A stretch of 64,000 nt of DNA, taken from the NCBI GenBank assembly GCA_905221615.1, contig CAJNDT010002001.1:861881-925880 (forward strand), read 5' to 3'. Positions within the stretch are counted from its first letter, which is position 1. Every line of letters begins with the position of its first letter. A model generated the notes under the pieces. It made no database searches, was not told where the DNA came from, and worked only from the letters and a program-made list of their open reading frames with translations. Below, piece by piece: positions 1,096-58,225 of this stretch. Source of the stretch: Symbiodinium sp. CCMP2592. Lineage: Eukaryota > Sar > Dinophyceae > Suessiales > Symbiodiniaceae. The translations under genes and the position numbers were made by a program.

Positions 1096-2810
1096 CTAAG
1101 CTGCGACTGAGACTTTGAGATTAGACAAACCCGGGGTCCGAACCGCCACAAAATCTGACTGAGATTGTGCAATCTGACCCTAAACCCTGAACCCCAAACC
1201 CTAAACCCTGACTGAAACCTTAGACCCTATAAACCCAAGAGCCACCAAATCCCTCGAACACTTGGACATGACTTCTCAAACCTCGCTGGAAAGGCAAGTC
1301 TCGGCGTAGTACTGCTCCTGTGCAGGGGCTCATGATTACATGATATGACACAATATGATAACATATCATATATAATTTCATCATATATAGTACAATGTAA
1401 CATAATATCATATACTTTAATTCATGGCTTTTTGGATTCTCCGGCCATGGATTTGGGCTCTAGCACCTATGATTCAAGTTCTGACTGCTGAGTTCCGGTT
1501 CATTAGCAGAGCTTCCAGCATGATCAGAGCTGTGCAAGAGCTGTCGCTTGCGACTCAGATTCTCGGAGTTTAACCTCCAGCAAACTCCAGACTTTATCAG
1601 ACATCTGGGAACACTGGAAATAGATCCGCCGTACACACCTGGTGTAGAAGGGAAATGCGACAATCTAGCCGACAAATGTGCGCAAACCTGCAGAGTTCCA
1701 GAGTCAGAGTCCTGGAGAGATTTGAACCTCTCAAACCTATTTCATAGGGTCAGAACTAGCCATCTCAGATCTCGATGCCTCCTCCTCAGAGCCACTGGTG
1801 TCCACCTGTCACGCAAGACAAGGGAAACACGGAAAAAACATCAAGCATATACTTCGCGATGAGTGCGCTTCCCAGTGTCCGCCAGTTACCTCACCATGTC
1901 ATGAAGGGCCCTGGGCAAAGAGAAGCCCAGGCTTCGCTTCTCAACTCGAGCGGCTCTTTCTGCACTGAGGCTGCACTTGAGAAAGGACGTGGTTTGTGGG
2001 ATTTCGGTCTCTGCCAGCTATGCCGTGCAGTGAGACTTGCAGGCACCTGCATGTGATACTAGCAGCAACAGGAAGTGAGGCTTCCAGACGTTTCTAGGAC
2101 GGAGCTGGGTGCGTGCAAATCCTTACACGGCAAGATTTAATTGCGGGAAGAGCTCACTGCTGCAAGGACTGCAAGGGAGCTGAAAAGCTGCGCGCAGCCT
2201 GCTTACAGAAGCAGAACCTGTACAACACCCTGATTGCAGGGAACAGAATTAAAAGCCGAACATGGTGCTTACTGTACTGGCTCTCGAGACCAACGCAGGT
2301 CTCTGAAATGAAAGTGACGAGGATTGATGAGGATAGTCGGCCTGCTAAGGCCTCACCTCTGCTTCGACAAGGAGAAACCGTCCCTCTGCAGCTTCATGAT
2401 GGCGACAGCCTGCAGCTCTCAATGCCCTCGCTCTCGTTTCTTAACGCTCTCCAACTCGCTTCACTGCACTTGAGCCCAGCAGCCGTCACTGAGAACACGG
2501 GCATGAGGCACATCACCGGGTGGTCCAGCAGGGTGCGAGCTCGGCCCGCTTTCTTACCCTGGGCTCTGTCCCGGTAGGTCGCCTGCCGCAGATACCGCAG
2601 GACTCGTACGGAGATTCGTCTAATCAAACTGTCATTAGTGTTGCTATTGCCAATACTGTTGCGCTCATTGTGATTATGATTGTGAGACATATTGGTATTA
2701 TCACTATTGCCATTACCATCACCATTATTGCTCCTACTTATTGACTTTAGGTGTCCTAGGACTTACGATTTTGATCACTTCTCTATGGAATGCTACCTGC
2801 TGTCGTTCAT
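1096..2810. other. no gene resolved; short telomere-like tract and degenerate triplet repeat
   Basis: A CCCTAAACCCTGA-type tract lies at about 1175-1230 and an AT-rich block at 1330-1420. Plus-strand open frames of about 100-150 codons at 1548-1862 and 2113-2577 have no recognisable features. A degenerate ATT/ACC/GCT triplet tract at 2625-2745 yields an apparent membrane segment on the plus strand. Confidence 0.4.
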
Positions 2811-2811
2811 G

Positions 2812-3022
2812 ATTAATACAGGGCCTAAATAATTACCGATACTATTTTGGGGGCTCCATATTATAAGTACAGCAGAATGGGCCCCAAAACCCTATTCTAA
2901 TTATTAAGACCACTATACTATAGTACCCTTATAATAGCCCTTAAAGCAACCCTGACATAGAGCACTTTAAAGGAACCCGATGCTATTATTCTTAAGACCC
3001 CTACAGTATTGGAGTATTTTGG
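2812..3022. repeat. family E related repeat just downstream of the desaturase gene
   Basis: Contains CCCTATTCTAATTATTAAG, AGTACCCTTATAATAGCCC and TTTTGGGGGCTCC as in the 1-600 repeat, rearranged and diverged. Confidence 0.55.
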
Positions 3023-3092
3023 GGAGTCCCTAAACCTAAACCCTACACCCTAAACCCCTAAACCCTACACCCTAAACCCCTAAACCCTAAAC
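3023..3092. repeat. telomere-like CCCTAAA tract overlapping the desaturase stop codon
   Basis: Variants of CCCTAAACC and CCCTACACC run on the plus strand. Read on the minus strand, the desaturase frame ends at TAG (3080-3082) inside this tract. Confidence 0.8.
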
Positions 3093-5456
3093 CGTGTAAA
3101 CCGGTCCTGCGAAGGTTGGATCTCCAATGCCCGGCCCACTTTTCGCGTGCCGAAGACGCAGTCCCAAAGACCGCCGATGGAGCTGAAGGTGTAATTGCCT
3201 TACTGGGTTGTGCTACAAGCCGTTTAAGAATTATTTATGAATAGGTTCCCCTTAGTAAGGAGAATTTAAAAATTATCCCCAAAGCACAACCCAGCTTAAG
3301 TTCGGGGTTAGGGTTATGTATGGCACATGCGGATGTTAAAACTTCGAGACGGGAACATGCTCAACTGCCGGCGAGCAGCATCCCTTGTGGCCTTCGTGAT
3401 GCCAGTCGTGGTGGTGTGGCATCTGCGCAAATGGGAAATACCTGACAGAAAACGGCATGGGCCGGGTCTCAGAGACGTCGCAAGTCTGCCGCGGATTGTA
3501 GAGCTTCGCGCAACGCCACGAACGCAGCAAAACAGCGAGCTTGCTAACTGCCAGCAACTGGCGCACTCTGCTAACATGTTGTAGGTGCCACAAACGAAAA
3601 GCATCTGGGTGGCTGTCAAAATTATGGTCCCTTTTTTGGGTGCCCTGAATATGGTCCCTTTTTTGGGTGCCCTGAATATTTGGTGCCGTATTTTCTTAAG
3701 GATCCCAAAAGGGACCCCAATTTTGGCTTCCACCCACATAGCAACATGAAAAAGGGCCTCTGCAGCTGGTGGGCCAGATTGAATCCGCAGCTCACGCCAG
3801 AGTGCTTCTCCTGAGAGTCTGTGATTTGGAAGGGATCGCTGGAGGCCTCGCTGCTTTATGCACAAAGATACTCTCGCGAGCATATGGGAGTTTCCGAAAA
3901 TAGGGGACCCTACCTAGTATGGTACCCTACATAGTAGGACCGAGGACCCTTATTATAAAGACCCCAAATAAGGTACCAGTACCCCTAATTTTTGTGATGC
4001 CAGACAAAATGTACAGCCGCAGCTTCTAGCTTTCAGTCAACGGAAGACAGACAGACAAACCTGCGAGACCTCCACGCGGCCACAGCTTGCAACGGCACAT
4101 TCACGACAGACCCCAAATCACAATAAATCCCTAAACAATACGTGCTAACCGTTTGGCTATACTCTCCAACAGCCCATTCGTACTCTCTAAAGGCGGGAGA
4201 GACTCTGTTGGGATCCCTAAGCGGTTCAAGCCATGGTCTGCTCCTTTGCTTTACATACTTGCGCACTCCCCCAGAACTACTCTCACCCACGCACGCGCAC
4301 AATATCCGTTTCTTCCTTAGCTACAGCCGAGGTGTCCAAACTCTCGAAGATGCGGAAGATGTGCGAGAACCAGAAGGTCCCGTGGTCCAGGGGGAGGAGG
4401 GCCTCATCGAATCGCTGAGACTCTCAAGATCCGAGAAGATTGGACAGCTTACCTTTGGTTAGTAGGGAATGGAAGACTGGTAGTAATAGTAGTTATATTT
4501 GTACACCAATCCTCCATTCCCTACTAACCAAAGGTAAGACCAGAGGAGAGGCTCCCGAAGGATCGAAGGATCACTGCAGTGGTCATCTTCTCAATGACTC
4601 AACGGACCGCCTACTTTTATGTCTACTGCAACGAGCATAGCTGTAATGCTTATACCATCAGGCAGTACAGAAAATACATCTTGGAACATGGCAAAGCTGA
4701 ATAGTGTTAGGCCCAAAGGCCTGCGCGCAAAAGTGCCCCACCACGGCATTGCCGAGGTTGTCCAGCCAGTGGTCGTCGTAGGTGTTGCGGGACAAGGGGT
4801 GCTTAGCCCAGTGGTGGTAAGAGTGGATCTTGTCCCAAAGGAACGGAACCACATGAAGAGCTCGATGCGTCCAGTACATGCCGAAGGACATGAGGTAGTG
4901 GTTGGCCACAAGTCGAAGCACTCGCTCATGAAGGGGCGCCACGACGTCGGCCGCTGCTGGGTAGTAGCCGGGGATCGCGAAGTAGAGACCCAGATTAAAG
5001 GCGAACTGACTGAGCAGGGTTAGACGATCATGAAAGAGAATGGTCTGAAGCTGCTCCATGTCCCTTCCACAAAGGTCCCTCTTCTCCTTCAGCGCATGCT
5101 CCTTCGGAGGCTGCGTGCGGAAGCTGGGGAAGCTGAAGAACACTGCCTCCAAGTAGGTGTTGTAAAGACGCGTCACAGCAGCCTTCGTGCAGAGGAAGGC
5201 AGCGAGCTCTTTCAGAGTCCAAGAGCCCTTGACATTCACCTGGGAGTTTCCGAAAACAAGGGATCCTAATATCGTACCCTAAACAGTAGGATCCTTATTA
5301 TAAGGACCCCAAAATAGAGTACCCCTAATTTTCGGAAACCCCCGCCTTCTCACCGGGTAGCAGGCAAGCTGCAGCCACTAGCGACCCCAAACTGCCGAGT
5401 TCCAGCAAGGTGAGGGACCAGTCGCCACTCCTGACTTCTCCGGCTTCTGGAGACAT
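3080..5456 (-). CDS. sterol desaturase / fatty-acid hydroxylase family protein, six exons
   Basis: Probable di-iron membrane oxygenase of the fatty-acid hydroxylase superfamily, which includes C4-sterol methyl oxidases and C5 desaturases; the substrate cannot be told from sequence. Proposed minus-strand exons are 5346-5456, 4721-5239, 4328-4402, 3758-3810, 3383-3441 and 3080-3198, giving 311 aa with every junction in frame. The three histidine clusters are present: HRALH (residues 162-166), HSYHH (176-180) and HHDWHH (263-268), plus HSG (238-240) and the C-terminal GGLWDCVFGT. Length fits the family. The start at 5456 follows an in-frame TAG, but a further upstream exon is possible (see 5498-5608). 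Donors are GC in introns 1-4 and GA in intron 5; all acceptors are AG followed by G. The exon 2/3 and 3/4 edges could shift by a few codons. The stop lies inside a TTTAGGG-like tract, so the last residues are doubtful. Confidence 0.85.
3203..3294. mobile_element. palindromic element in desaturase intron 5
   Basis: The inverted ends CTGGGTTGTGCT and AGCACAACCCAG enclose about 70 bp with CCCCTTAGTAAGGAG in the middle. It fills most of the proposed 184-bp intron 3199-3382 (GA donor, AAG acceptor). No second copy of this TIR was noticed in the window. Confidence 0.6.
3607..3735. mobile_element. family C palindromic element in desaturase intron 4
   Basis: The TIR is GGGTGGCTGTCAAAATTATG, with a degenerate partner ending CTTCCACCC. 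The left arm holds a tandem duplication of about 27 bp (ATGGTCCCTTTTTTGGGTGC repeated at about 3624 and 3651). It lies within the proposed intron 3442-3757. Confidence 0.65.
3886..3993. mobile_element. family A palindromic element in desaturase intron 3
   Basis: It begins GGGAGTTTCCGAAAATAGGG after CATAT and has the family core with TAGTAGGA and TTATTATAAAGACCCC. The right end is degenerate and the expected GGAAACTCCC is lost. It lies within the proposed intron 3811-4327. The rest of that intron (about 4000-4327) has an open minus frame of 89 codons without recognisable features. Confidence 0.6.
4448..4538. mobile_element. family B palindromic element in desaturase intron 2
   Basis: The TIR starts CTTACCTTTGGTTAGTAGGG and ends as its reverse complement. 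The outer GGTAAG resembles a 5' splice donor pointing outward at both ends. It lies within the proposed intron 4403-4720. A sister copy is at 22609-22699, and a variant with different outer ends is at 53372-53496. Confidence 0.75.
5240..5345 (-). mobile_element. intron 1 of the desaturase gene, formed by a family A palindromic element
   Basis: On the minus strand the intron runs GC...AG for 106 bp and is almost nothing but one element, with TIRs GGGGGTTTCCGAAAATTAGG and its partner. The flanking trinucleotide CCT (AGG on the coding strand) is present at both ends, so the target duplication supplies the AG|G context of both splice sites. Removing the intron joins GAG AAG to GTG AAT GTC in frame. 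This is the clearest introner-like case in the window. Confidence 0.75.
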
Positions 5457-5497
5457 GAAGGCTTTCCTCTACAGTAGGTCATAAGCATTTTAAAACT

Positions 5498-5608
5498 TTA
5501 GAGCAAACGACGAACAACTTCGGCACTGCTGAGATTCAGCAACAAAGAAGAGAAGTGGTGGCGGAAGCTCAGCTTCTCGGACGGGTACTCCAAGGTGTAC
5601 ACCATCTC
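5498..5608 (-). CDS. candidate exon upstream of the desaturase gene (strand uncertain)
   Basis: On the minus strand a pyrimidine-rich CTCCTCCCAG acceptor is followed by GAG ATG and 36 open codons with GC-rich third positions, up to a TAA at 5498. It could be a 5' exon of the desaturase gene, but I found no in-frame donor joining it to 5456. The plus strand of the same stretch is also open (about 5537-5632, ending TGA, with WEEIGLL at the end), so the strand is not settled. No family recognised. Confidence 0.3.
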   Translation of the reverse strand, partial: EMVYTLEYPSEKLSFRHHFSSLLLNLSSAEVVRRLL

Positions 5609-5639
5609 CTGGGAGGAGATCGGTCTACTGTGACTCCGG

Positions 5640-6090
5640 GTGCAGCTTACCTATAATGTTGACCTAGGATTAATAATCCCACCACGATTAAAGGCGGCCT
5701 GCGGGCGGCTCCGGCCCCAATCTGTACTACTTTAAAGGCAGCACCCAAATAAGGATCGTTTTTTGCAGAAAACCCCCCACGATTAAAGGCAACACCGTCT
5801 GGGGATCTAAAATTTCAAAAAGTGCTTCGAAGACTACTTTTAAAGGGGGCAAGACTACATTTAAAGGGCGTCTTGTCCTGTTTCAAGCGGTTCTTTCAAG
5901 GGCTACTGCTACTGCTACTGCCGCTGCTACTACTGCTGCTACTACGACTACTACTACTAGCACCACTGTTTACTGCAATTTGGCTTCACGGGATTATTTG
6001 GGGGTCTGTGATCCTGTGGGGGGCCTGCGACCTTGACAACCTTGAGGGGGGGGGGGGCGGGGGGGGGGGGGGTTTATTAATCAGGGGTCA
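5640..6090. repeat. GCTACT triplet tract and G-run
   Basis: CTGCTACTACTGCTGC-type triplets run at about 5900-5965 and a nearly pure G-run at 6044-6072. No gene seen between 5640 and 6090. Confidence 0.7.
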
Positions 6091-6182
6091 ACATTAGGCT
6101 CCATTGTAGCTCCTTTTTGTGGTTTGTATTTGGGATCGTATAAGGTACTCCCAAACAGGAACTACAATAGAGTCTATGGATA
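6091..6182. mobile_element. family G related palindromic element
   Basis: GGCTCCATTGTAGCTCCTTT on the left pairs with AGGAACTACAATAGAGTC on the right. It is related to the copy at 55626-55732. Confidence 0.6.
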
Positions 6183-6589
6183 CTGGCTTGATTAGACAGT
6201 TTGCCGGGTCTTCTTCGCTAAGCGCAGCCCACCGATGATCAACATTACAGACTCCAGCTGAAGTCCTTCGACTGGCCGGACATGATGTCCAGGGTCACAA
6301 CAATCGCGGAGGCGATGTGAGGATGCACTATGCACGGGTGCTGCGAGCAACGCGCAAGCAAGATGACGGATGCGACACGGCGAGCTGTCAAGCCAAGCCT
6401 TAAATTTGAAAAGTCAGCGCGTTCAACGCCTAGCCAGCTTGATTTAGCAGCATGAGCCTCGGCCCTTCTCTGATGGGCTACAAACTGCCCTGCCACGCGA
6501 GGAGTAGGTTCTTCTCAGCATGCTCTGATGCCGACATGGGCGATACAGTTTCCGCTATAATAGGCAAACAACAAATTACATAAGTATGT

Positions 6590-55525: not shown

Positions 55526-58225
55526 CTTCGAGCTCAAAGCTGCGGGCTTCGCTGGCTTCGAACTCGGCAGACAAAGCTTCCAACCTGCGAGAAGCATGTG
55601 CCGCTGAAAAGTTTAGGGTTTACCGATAGTCTCAATTGTAGTTCCTTTTTTTGGTTAACCAAAAGCTCCATTATAGGGTCTTAACCCTGAAACTGGTTAA
55701 CCAAAAAAAGGGAGCTGCAATGGAGACTATAGGTAGGGTTTAGGTCGGGGTGCACAATCCGAAAGGCCCTTGTAAAAGCGAAGAGACAGACTCCCACTCA
55801 ACGCCACAGAGTGCCCTCGGCCCCTGGCTGTCCCTCTTGCGCGGCATACCGCTGCTGTGCAAGGGCCACATCTGCCTCTCAAAGTCTGTACAGCCATAAA
55901 GCTTAAGCTCTAAGGACGGCGGGGGCAAAGCTTGGGGCTTAGGGCCGAAATCTTGGTCTTCAGGGCCTTCAGGGCTTCGTGCTCCGCCTGAAATACGTAG
56001 GTTGCTACTTGTACTGAGGGCGGAATGCTTGCGAGGTCACAGAGGAGTTTGGATTCAGATAGTCTGCGCAGGGGCAGGGTTGGCTCAAGTCATCTGCCTC
56101 AGACCTCGTGGAGGGTCGGGGGACGTAGTAACTGGTTATTTTAGGGACTTATAAGTACCAGAACCCCAATTGGGGTCCCTTTTAGGGTACTTATAAGCCT
56201 ACTTACTAGCTACTTACTAAGTCCCCTGACCCCCCAAGCTGGACTAGCCGGGCGAGGAGTAATCGTGCCAATCCAGAAACAGGAATCAGTAACCACCTTG
56301 CAAATCAACATGTAACCACAAGCCTATCCTCGAAAGCTGGTCATGCTCAACCACTACTCCTGCAAGCTGTCATACTCATCAGATGTAGCATGCACATGCT
56401 TTCATCATCGTCACAATAAACAGTCAGCCATGACCATCAAATAAAGAGTCAGTCCGAGTCGGACACACCAATTCTCTGCTGCAAGCAAGCCTTTGCGCTC
56501 ATACCCGGCCACATCCAAAACCAGAGCCCGAGCGCAGCATGTCCAACAAAACAGCCTGCCTGAGCTGCAGCACAGGCCGCCTCAGTCCTGTTTCGCATAG
56601 ATTCGACTGACTCCCTTCAAGCACAGACCCACGCCGGCAAGCGAGCAAACGGAACGTAATTACCGGGATAGAGAGCGAGGTGAGTCAAACAGTCTAATCA
56701 ACGCGCACACACATACACCAGACCTCAATCTTCCAACCAGAACCCCTAGCCGTTGCCCTGCATGCTGCGAAACCATCAGAAACAAAATCCCAAGATCAGA
56801 TTTTCTGAATCCCAGGGGTGTCCGTCTCAATGCTGCGGTCGTCTCCTCGAGTTCCAGCTCGACGGCGCGAGCCTCCCCGCTTTTGGCTCCGCAGCCACGG
56901 GGCGAGTGTGATGCAACACTCACTAAGGTGCTCAACTGTAGTCTATAATGCCATACTGAAATGAAGATAACAAATTTCAAACCAATTTCAATCAAGCAAA
57001 AATGCATGCATTCTGGCGTACTTGAGTGATCCCCATTACCCAGGCCCCACAGTAGTTCCTTTTTGGGATTACCTTATAGAAGTCTAAACATGAACCCCAA
57101 AAAGGAACTACTTTGGGGCCGATGGGTAACCTCGCGCCGTCAAGGCCTGCTCCACGCTTTGGCGTTGGACCGCCTGTGCTGCCAAAGATCGCTGGTGAGC
57201 CTCGGCCCCAGGTGTCACATGGATCCGCTGGAAATGGGGGTAGCTCTCCAAATTAGGGTCCCTTTGTAGGGCTCCTTATAAGGGTTTGTATAGGTGTTCT
57301 ATAAGAGTAGTATGAGGGTAGTACTCTGAATTCGGGTCCCTTTGAGGGTGCCGTGCTATTTCGGGACCTAAAAAACGGGATCCCAATTCAGACAGCTACC
57401 CATATTGGAGCTCTAGGGCGGGAGAGTTGGGTTGGGGGGGGACACATATTTACGGTAGGTGTCCTCAGACTAAGGATACATCGTGTACATCGGCATAAAA
57501 TAAACCGTCCCAGCTCTTGCTCTGTGTACAGGTACAATACTTGTACATCTCTCAATCTGTCTTCGTACATATATGCGTATATGATCTGCATGCATGTTTT
57601 ATCTATTTTTAATGGTTTACACACACACATGTCTGTGTGTACATGGTACATCTGCTTCCACCGTGTTGTTCCGGGCTCGGCTCGCTTGTGTAGCCTGCGG
57701 ATAAAGAAAAAATGGTGGAGGAGGAGGAGGAGGAGGAGGAATAGCAGTAAGAGCAGGAGTTAGCGTAGGAGCAGGAATAGGCCTTTAGATACCCTACAAC
57801 ACACTACATCGCCCACCCCAGATCCCGAAGTCCTGACATCCTAAGCCCTACACGCCAAACCCCTGCACAACCCTTACACTTCCACTCCCAAAATCCCAAC
57901 ATCCTGAATCCTAAACCCCCAATCTCAAAAAGAAACACTTAGGTCCGCTGCCGTAGCCAGCTCGTCGCTCATCTTCGCCATGGCTCTCGCTTCGCTAAGA
58001 CCGTCGTCCTCCTGGGAGTGGGTTCTGACAGGCTCGAGGCGAATATCACATAAGATGGGATATTGGGCTGTCTTGTCCTACCCTGAACCTGAAACCCTGA
58101 CCTTCGAAACAAACCCCAAACACCCTAAACTCCCAAACCCCAAACTGAAGTCTACTGCCTGAGAGCCCGGCGAAGCGTCGCCGGAGCTCTGCGAGCTCGG
58201 CACTGGCCTGGGCAGCCATCTCGGC
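55526..58225 (-). CDS. coiled-coil protein gene 2, several short exons
   Basis: Minus-strand coiled-coil exons, in order: 58159-58225 (AEMAAQASAELAELRRRFAG), from 58011 down to about 57948 (EDDGLSEARAMAKMSDELAT), from 56872 to about 56828 (ARAVELELEETTAAL), from 55987 to about 55938 (AEHEALKALKTKISAL), from 55875 to about 55810 (ADVALAQQRYAAQEG) and 55526-55584 (LEALSAEFEASEARSFELE). Each follows an AG|G acceptor; several right edges are unresolved and some exons are probably missing. The exons are separated by telomere-like tracts, a family F element (56109-56239) and a family G element (55626-55732). Such Glu/Ala/Leu heptad-like proteins are usually structural or scaffold. No specific family; these may be more than one gene. 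Confidence 0.55.
55626..55732. mobile_element. family G palindromic element in a coiled-coil gene intron
   Basis: ATAGTCTCAATTGTAGTTCC pairs with GGAGCTGCAATGGAGACTAT. The inner arms carry GGTTAACC twice. It lies between the exons at 55875 and 55584. Confidence 0.85.
56109..56239. mobile_element. family F palindromic element, copy 2
   Basis: GGAGGGTCGGGGGACGTAGT pairs with ACTAAGTCCCCTGACCCCCC. The interior matches copy 1 at 38333-38498. It lies between coiled-coil exons at about 56830 and 55987. Confidence 0.85.
57036..57129. mobile_element. palindromic element (family J)
   Basis: TTACCCAGGCCCCACAGTAG pairs with CTACTTTGGGGCCGATGGGTAA. The inner arm AGTTCCTTTTTGGG resembles family G. Confidence 0.8.
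57236..57401. mobile_element. family C palindromic element, expanded
   Basis: GGGGGTAGCTCTCCAAATTA pairs with CCAATTCAGACAGCTACCC. AAAT and ATAT lie outside. The left inner arm is partly duplicated (AATTAGGGTCCCTTT at 57253, AATTCGGGTCCCTTT at 57330). Confidence 0.8.
57780..57935. repeat. telomere-like CCCTAAA tract, degenerate, with GGA repeats on its left
   Basis: (GGA)n lies at 57715-57740; CCCTACACGCC, AATCCTAAACCCCCAA and similar words follow. Confidence 0.7.

Follow-up and report, generated by a model that had tools for sequence, protein, structure and literature searches.

Strong support for the gain of one intron from an introner-like element in a ten-exon Symbiodinium gene

Introners of Symbiodinium microadriaticum have inverted repeats and 4-bp target duplications, as in a 115-bp example (Gozashti et al., 2022, PMC9860276, Fig. 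2B), and carry a 3′ splice site of their own. That report also describes Florenciella introners for which the insertion site supplies both splice sites and the element none (Fig. 2E), lists the derivation of both sites from the duplication as a possibility for other families, and finds that genes are enriched for introners in 161 of 175 genomes. The introner elements described for Amoebophrya (Farhat et al., 2021, PMC7789003) form inverted-repeat hairpins, have direct repeats of 3-5 nt that overlap the exon-intron boundaries, and use mostly non-canonical splice motifs. For dinoflagellates, large-scale introner activity is cited in a review (PMC11453091), according to which the GC-AG boundary is common in Symbiodiniaceae, and introner elements are placed in 3-5% of genes in Symbiodiniaceae groups (PMC11114475). 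Here we describe a gene for a fatty-acid-hydroxylase-superfamily (sterol-desaturase-like) protein in a 64,000-nt stretch of DNA from Symbiodinium sp. CCMP2592 (hereafter the window; contig CAJNDT010002001.1, positions 861,881 to 925,880). An earlier note on this window had proposed that the whole intron set of the gene is made of several families of palindromic elements. Our analysis strongly supports the origin of intron 3 by gain of an introner-like element, from a repeat family here called family A. This is a further instance of the known introner phenomenon, and amounts to one clear case at this locus rather than five.

The structure of the window gene was established by homology. A DNA search of the genome (1.098 Gb in 5383 contigs) with window positions 3080-5456 as the query led to a second locus on contig C4223, fetched as L009, in which the matches are adjacent where the window gene is interrupted. 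Alignment to this intronless paralogue yields ten exons and nine introns. The spliced translation of 373 amino acids is intact with every junction in frame, which bears out what had been said of the junctions before, and the protein is 93.7% identical to that of L009 across the aligned part. Exon 1, with 18 coding nucleotides, aligns more weakly than the others (score 37; the best of 200 shuffles reached 31). The five introns proposed earlier all exist, as introns 3 to 7; three of the proposed lengths (106, 318, 517, 316 and 184 bp) agree exactly with the alignment and two are slightly off (106, 318, 526, 316 and 181 bp), and introns 1, 2, 8 and 9 had been missed. Five introns (3, 4, 6, 7 and 9) have a GC donor and four (1, 2, 5 and 8) a GA donor; none has GT, and each of the nine has an AG acceptor with G as the next base. 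Such GC and GA donors are among the dinoflagellate features of the genome, as are its telomere-like TTTAGGG arrays and a relic of the spliced leader. The L009 protein (P0001) matches the fatty acid hydroxylase family PF04116 with an E value of 4.5e-18; sequence searches with it found no relative in the Protein Data Bank (PDB) and no match in NCBIfam. A protein search of the genome at an E value of 0.001 gave the window gene and L009 as the only loci.

Among the nine introns, only intron 3 is coextensive with its element. Specifically, it consists of a 102-bp family A copy and one 4-bp target duplication, and of nothing else, so that its boundaries are those of the element plus the duplicated bases. 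At the corresponding site, L009 has a single AGGT and no insertion. The repeats of the element are predicted to fold into one stem (-53.9 kcal/mol, z -8.6 relative to dinucleotide shuffles), with the donor GC and the acceptor AG left unpaired at its base. By description, intron 3 resembles the introners of S. microadriaticum in being short and DNA-transposon-like, with inverted repeats and a 4-bp duplication, but it takes both splice sites from the duplication rather than receiving one from the element. In this respect it is like the Florenciella introners, which belong to another lineage. It shares with the Amoebophrya elements both the hairpin and the direct repeats at the boundaries, and differs from most of them in its GC-AG motif. 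Family A has mostly AT-rich targets, a point to set beside the gene enrichment of the introners of Gozashti et al. A further likeness is to the work of Roy et al. 2023 on dinoflagellates, as cited in the review mentioned above, in which many element families create introns. A literature search that combined intron gain, AGGT, target site duplication and transposon gave no match.

The homologue without the intron also provides a means of dating. L009 encodes a protein of 371 amino acids in an intact, intronless frame, and its homology with the window gene extends into the 3′ untranslated region. Dinoflagellate retrogenes, as described in PMC6050394, lack introns and carry relics of the spliced leader 50 to 100 nt 5′ of their start codons. 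L009 is like these in having no introns and a relic upstream, 53 nt before its ATG, but this relic is incomplete: it agrees with the dinoflagellate spliced leader at 11 of its last 12 bases and at only 13 of all 21. In a scan of both strands that covered 574,968 positions, a match this good occurs at two sites, one of them that of L009 itself. We conclude that L009 is probably a retrogene derived from a spliced mRNA, and probably a functional one. As a frozen copy of spliced mRNA, it would support the junctions of the window gene without recourse to RNA data, at least for introns older than L009. Over 364 codons, nonsynonymous divergence (dN) between the paralogues is 0.031 and 0.030 and synonymous divergence (dS) is 0.60 (NG86) and 0.65 (YN00). 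With equal rates assumed, half of the latter, about 0.3 substitutions per synonymous site, would fall to each side after the duplication. The intron 3 element is 7.8% from the family A consensus, although this consensus was built from copies chosen by their similarity to the intron 3 copy, so its age may be underestimated. Set beside a dS of 0.60-0.65, this divergence indicates that intron 3 probably arose after the duplication, and the dating favors gain over loss.

Family A is abundant elsewhere in the genome. Exact 11-base ends identify 9,393 copies, compared with 0 for a reversed-pattern control, and a looser pattern finds 16,063, compared with 714 in its control. Thirty loci were fetched by similarity to the family. 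Among 39 complete or near-complete matches to the element in the window and the fetched loci, 27 have identical 4-bp flanks; 26 of these 27 targets have the form ANNT, and 14 of the 26 are ATAT. AGGT is present on both sides of 86 exact-ended copies (50 forward, 36 reverse). This is 0.9% of the total, which makes AGGT a rare target for the family. We examined 47 of the 86 (46 plus locus L003), and two of these are introns by homology. One, L082, is in an FKBP gene (PF00254, E value 5.9e-29): its product aligns to a wheat FKBP in the PDB with no gap across the junction, 9 of 12 other genome matches (24-46% identity) run through the junction point, and the insertion, if retained, would introduce a stop. 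The other, L114, has a paralogue that is 88% identical over 134 of 134 residues and contiguous in 402 bases, such that the insertion is absent; its uninterrupted site is near position 95162 of contig C4968. Another paralogue of L114 is 49% identical over residues 6-129. Relative to its gene, the intron 3 element is oriented opposite to those of L082 and L114, and both orientations are therefore found among the three best cases.

Other AGGT-flanked copies give less. L091 is marginal, with an Ion_trans alignment that stops five residues beyond the junction, and L103 has PPR matches on one flank only. L079, L105 and L111 have an open frame across the junction without further support; Pfam has no match for L105 and L079, and one weak, unconvincing match for L111. 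Pfam searches with eight further spliced reads from seven loci (L115 in two frames, and L114 included) found nothing, and a PDB sequence search with L114 found nothing of note. The copy at L003 was rejected as a shown intron because no convincing frame crosses its junction. Beside that copy, at L003:1641-2246, family B ends form a tandem array that repeats about every 103 bp. On the question raised by the earlier note, how often such elements are bounded by splice sites, family A yields two introns by homology besides intron 3 among the 47 copies examined, most of which have no sign of being introns. The base preceding AGGT is C in 29 of the 47 copies, L003 included, compared with 31% of the AGGT sites in the window (p 1e-5), an excess that fits splice-consensus sites, whether exonic or at existing acceptors. 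G+C content differs only weakly between the left and right sides of AGGT copies (p 0.065). Some copies in L074-L119 combine a left side of low G+C with a right side of high G+C, as might follow from insertion at existing acceptors.

The remaining introns of the window gene differ from intron 3. Inverted-repeat elements or their remnants are found in six of the nine (family E in intron 1, family A in intron 3 and, degraded, in intron 5, B in intron 4, C in intron 6 and D in intron 7), and introns 2, 8 and 9 yielded none in a sequence search for families A-E and in an inverted-repeat scan. The presence of several families is as the earlier note had stated, and its assignment of one element to each of five introns (A, B, A, C and a fifth type) holds for four families, in the order A, B, A, C, D, except that the copy in intron 5, as assessed from the window and the fetched loci, is a degraded remnant. 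The idea that each intron is its element had to be abandoned, because boundaries disagree with element ends in five of the six element-bearing introns, and with three of the nine introns yielding no element, the origin of the whole set in this way is not supported. The elements of introns 1, 4, 5 and 6 are nested, far from at least one splice site. In intron 7, element and intron agree at the acceptor end only. The D copy, read on the gene strand, has TAAG on both sides; the second TAAG includes the acceptor, and the donor is 85 nt upstream of the element. It appears that D duplicated a pre-existing acceptor. Intron gain keeps strong support at intron 3, and the repeated gain originally suggested is not supported where elements are nested or reach the acceptor only.

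Families A, B, C and D all recur across the genome. Three of them, A, B and D, have the properties of miniature inverted-repeat transposable elements (MITEs), in that they are short, have terminal inverted repeats, make target duplications of fixed length, and exist in many copies. Identical 4-bp flanks are present at 13 of 30 family B loci, the window copy not being among them, and in all three further D copies that were read (TTTA, TAAG and TTAA). Like the intron 3 element, B, C and D are predicted to fold much more stably than their dinucleotide shuffles (z -12.8 for B, -4.5 for C and -5.2 for D), and introns 2 and 9 fold no better than theirs. Intron 1 also contains a long G run with a single interruption (window 6046-6073), and interstitial telomere-like CCCTAAA repeats are present at window 3028-3093, within intron 8. 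Coordinates are collected in Table 1.

Table 1. Features of the window gene, its introns and elements, and its intronless paralogue (window positions unless a locus is named)
Feature	Position	Strand	Basis or remark
Ten-exon, nine-intron gene, 373-aa sterol-desaturase-like protein	2353..6283	(-)	alignment to L009
Intron 1, GA-AG, 657 nt	5609..6265	(-)	alignment to L009
Family E palindromic element, inside intron 1	6098..6167	(-)	match to L009 locus; second copy at window 57052-57119
Intron 2, GA-AG, 107 nt, no element found	5431..5537	(-)	alignment to L009
Intron 3, GC-AG, 106 nt	5240..5345	(-)	alignment to paralogue; element ends and target duplications of family A
Family A element, 102 bp, inverted repeat GGGAGTTTCCGAAAA	5242..5343	(-)	gene-strand flanks AGGC and AGGT
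Intron 4, GC-AG, 318 nt	4403..4720	(-)	alignment to L009
Family B element, 91-bp near-perfect palindrome, inside intron 4	4448..4538	(-)	3.3% from family consensus
Intron 5, GA-AG, 526 nt	3811..4336	(-)	alignment to L009
Degraded family A copy without right inverted repeat, inside intron 5	3886..3992	(-)	sequence comparison
Intron 6, GC-AG, 316 nt	3442..3757	(-)	alignment to L009
Family C element, inside intron 6	3603..3739	(-)	repeat family with further genome copies
Intron 7, GC-AG, 181 nt	3199..3379	(-)	alignment to L009
Family D element, TAAG duplication holding the intron 7 acceptor AG	3203..3294	(-)	window copy and three other D copies
Intron 8, GA-AG, 524 nt, telomere-like TTTAGGG repeats, no element found	2583..3106	(-)	alignment to L009
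Intron 9, GC-AG, 74 nt, no element found	2410..2483	(-)	alignment to L009
L009 paralogue, intact, intronless	L009:2271-3460		partial spliced-leader relic ending 53 nt 5′ of ATG

We consider it very probable that the window gene is a nine-intron gene in which intron 3 came from the insertion of family A into an exonic AGGT, and that the other elements entered introns that were already there. The gene would be a spliced dinoflagellate gene in a genome rich in short MITEs. Before intron 3 existed, a spliced mRNA would have given rise to the L009 retrogene. A family A MITE would then have entered an exonic AGGT and doubled those four bases, generating the arrangement AG/GT-element-AG/GT. Because the target is duplicated, donor and acceptor would both derive from it, and the element would serve only as filling. 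The inverted repeats are predicted to fold into a hairpin that would bring both splice sites side by side, and this may help splicing. The donor GT would later have changed to GC, a donor that dinoflagellates splice. Since the element is nearly symmetrical and has no splice site of its own, insertion in either orientation should work. Elsewhere in the gene, E, B, the degraded A, C and D would have inserted into existing introns, with D landing on the final four bases of intron 7, so that the acceptor was doubled.

Several observations weigh against this account of intron 3. In addition to the composition of the consensus and the partial state of the spliced-leader relic, the flanks of the intron 3 element differ by one base (AGGC upstream, compared with AGGT), and the splicing of the window introns today is something that we infer from homology. 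Furthermore, the majority of AGGT copies have no sign of being introns or of residing in coding sequence. When flanks are joined, frames of at least 100 codons occur in 13 of 40 on the AGGT strand and in 6 of 40 on the other strand, compared with 14 of 58 reads from other copies of family A; the median open frames are 70.5, 70.5 and 72.5, respectively. AGGT copies thus do no better than control A copies, which leaves most of them not shown to lie within coding exons, and open reading frames over joined flanks were dropped as evidence for introns. Finally, about 99% of exact-ended A copies lack AGGT flanks, as might be expected if the elements were ordinary MITEs that merely lie in introns and intron 3 were an old intron whose content has been replaced. 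We regard this last alternative as highly improbable, given that intron 3 contains the element and one target duplication only, and that L082 and L114 have the same arrangement and homologues without the insertion. The case for intron gain at intron 3 draws on the coincidence of element and intron, on the homologue without the intron, on the divergence, and on family A introns in at least two other genes.

Two other histories are built on the remaining introns. All or most introns could each have been made by a separate element family, with the nested elements being introner remnants in introns that grew later. Such a history would accommodate five families across six introns, the short direct repeats at several junctions (AGGCC for intron 4 and CAGG for intron 8), and the numerous and diverse introners of dinoflagellates cited in PMC11453091. 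We nevertheless find it quite unlikely. AG/G at both junctions would follow from the splice consensus, so short junction repeats weigh little; B, C, E and the degraded A each have at least one end well within the intron, D apparently used an acceptor already in place, and three introns yielded no element in either search. Moreover, the small divergence of B from its consensus would leave little time for an intron to have grown around it. Alternatively, L009 might represent the ancestral intronless state, and the nine introns of the window gene might all postdate the duplication. L009 is indeed intact and without introns, and intron 3 does appear younger than the duplication. However, a spliced-leader relic at the expected distance (-50 to -100, PMC6050394) marks a retroposed mRNA, and eight more gains would be needed, three of them without any trace of an element found, which makes this history unlikely as well. 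The preferred reading remains a single gain at intron 3, with the other elements inserted into introns already in place.

Outside the window gene, too, such inverted-repeat elements are common. A structure-only scan of the 64-kb window found 22, 15, 12 and 8 elements at four thresholds, compared with none in three Markov shuffles per threshold, except for a single element in one shuffle at the second threshold. Two of the 15 elements found at this threshold are within introns of the gene, in a scan that is insensitive and misses the A and D copies of the gene, that of intron 3 included. By sequence, families A-E occupy 16 places in the window, six of them within the gene, a count that is biased toward the gene because the families were defined from it. 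Enrichment of elements in its introns is not claimed.

This locus offers a datable intron birth, in which the element, the target duplication, an insertion-free homologue and a frozen cDNA are all available in one genome. It also permits introns made by an element to be told apart from elements that are merely within introns, a distinction that a repeat scan of introns alone would miss, thereby inflating counts of intron gain. If family A is mostly a MITE of AT-rich sites (target ANNT) that does not seek out genes, then how does it come to make introns? We propose, plausibly but tentatively, that it does so only by accident, when it strikes AGGT and the 4-bp duplication provides a complete donor and acceptor with no splice signal required from the element. 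If true, splicing would act as a filter that determines which family A insertions persist in genes, and insertions at existing acceptors, as suggested by D in intron 7 and by CAGGT at 29 of 47 copies, would constitute a second tolerated class.
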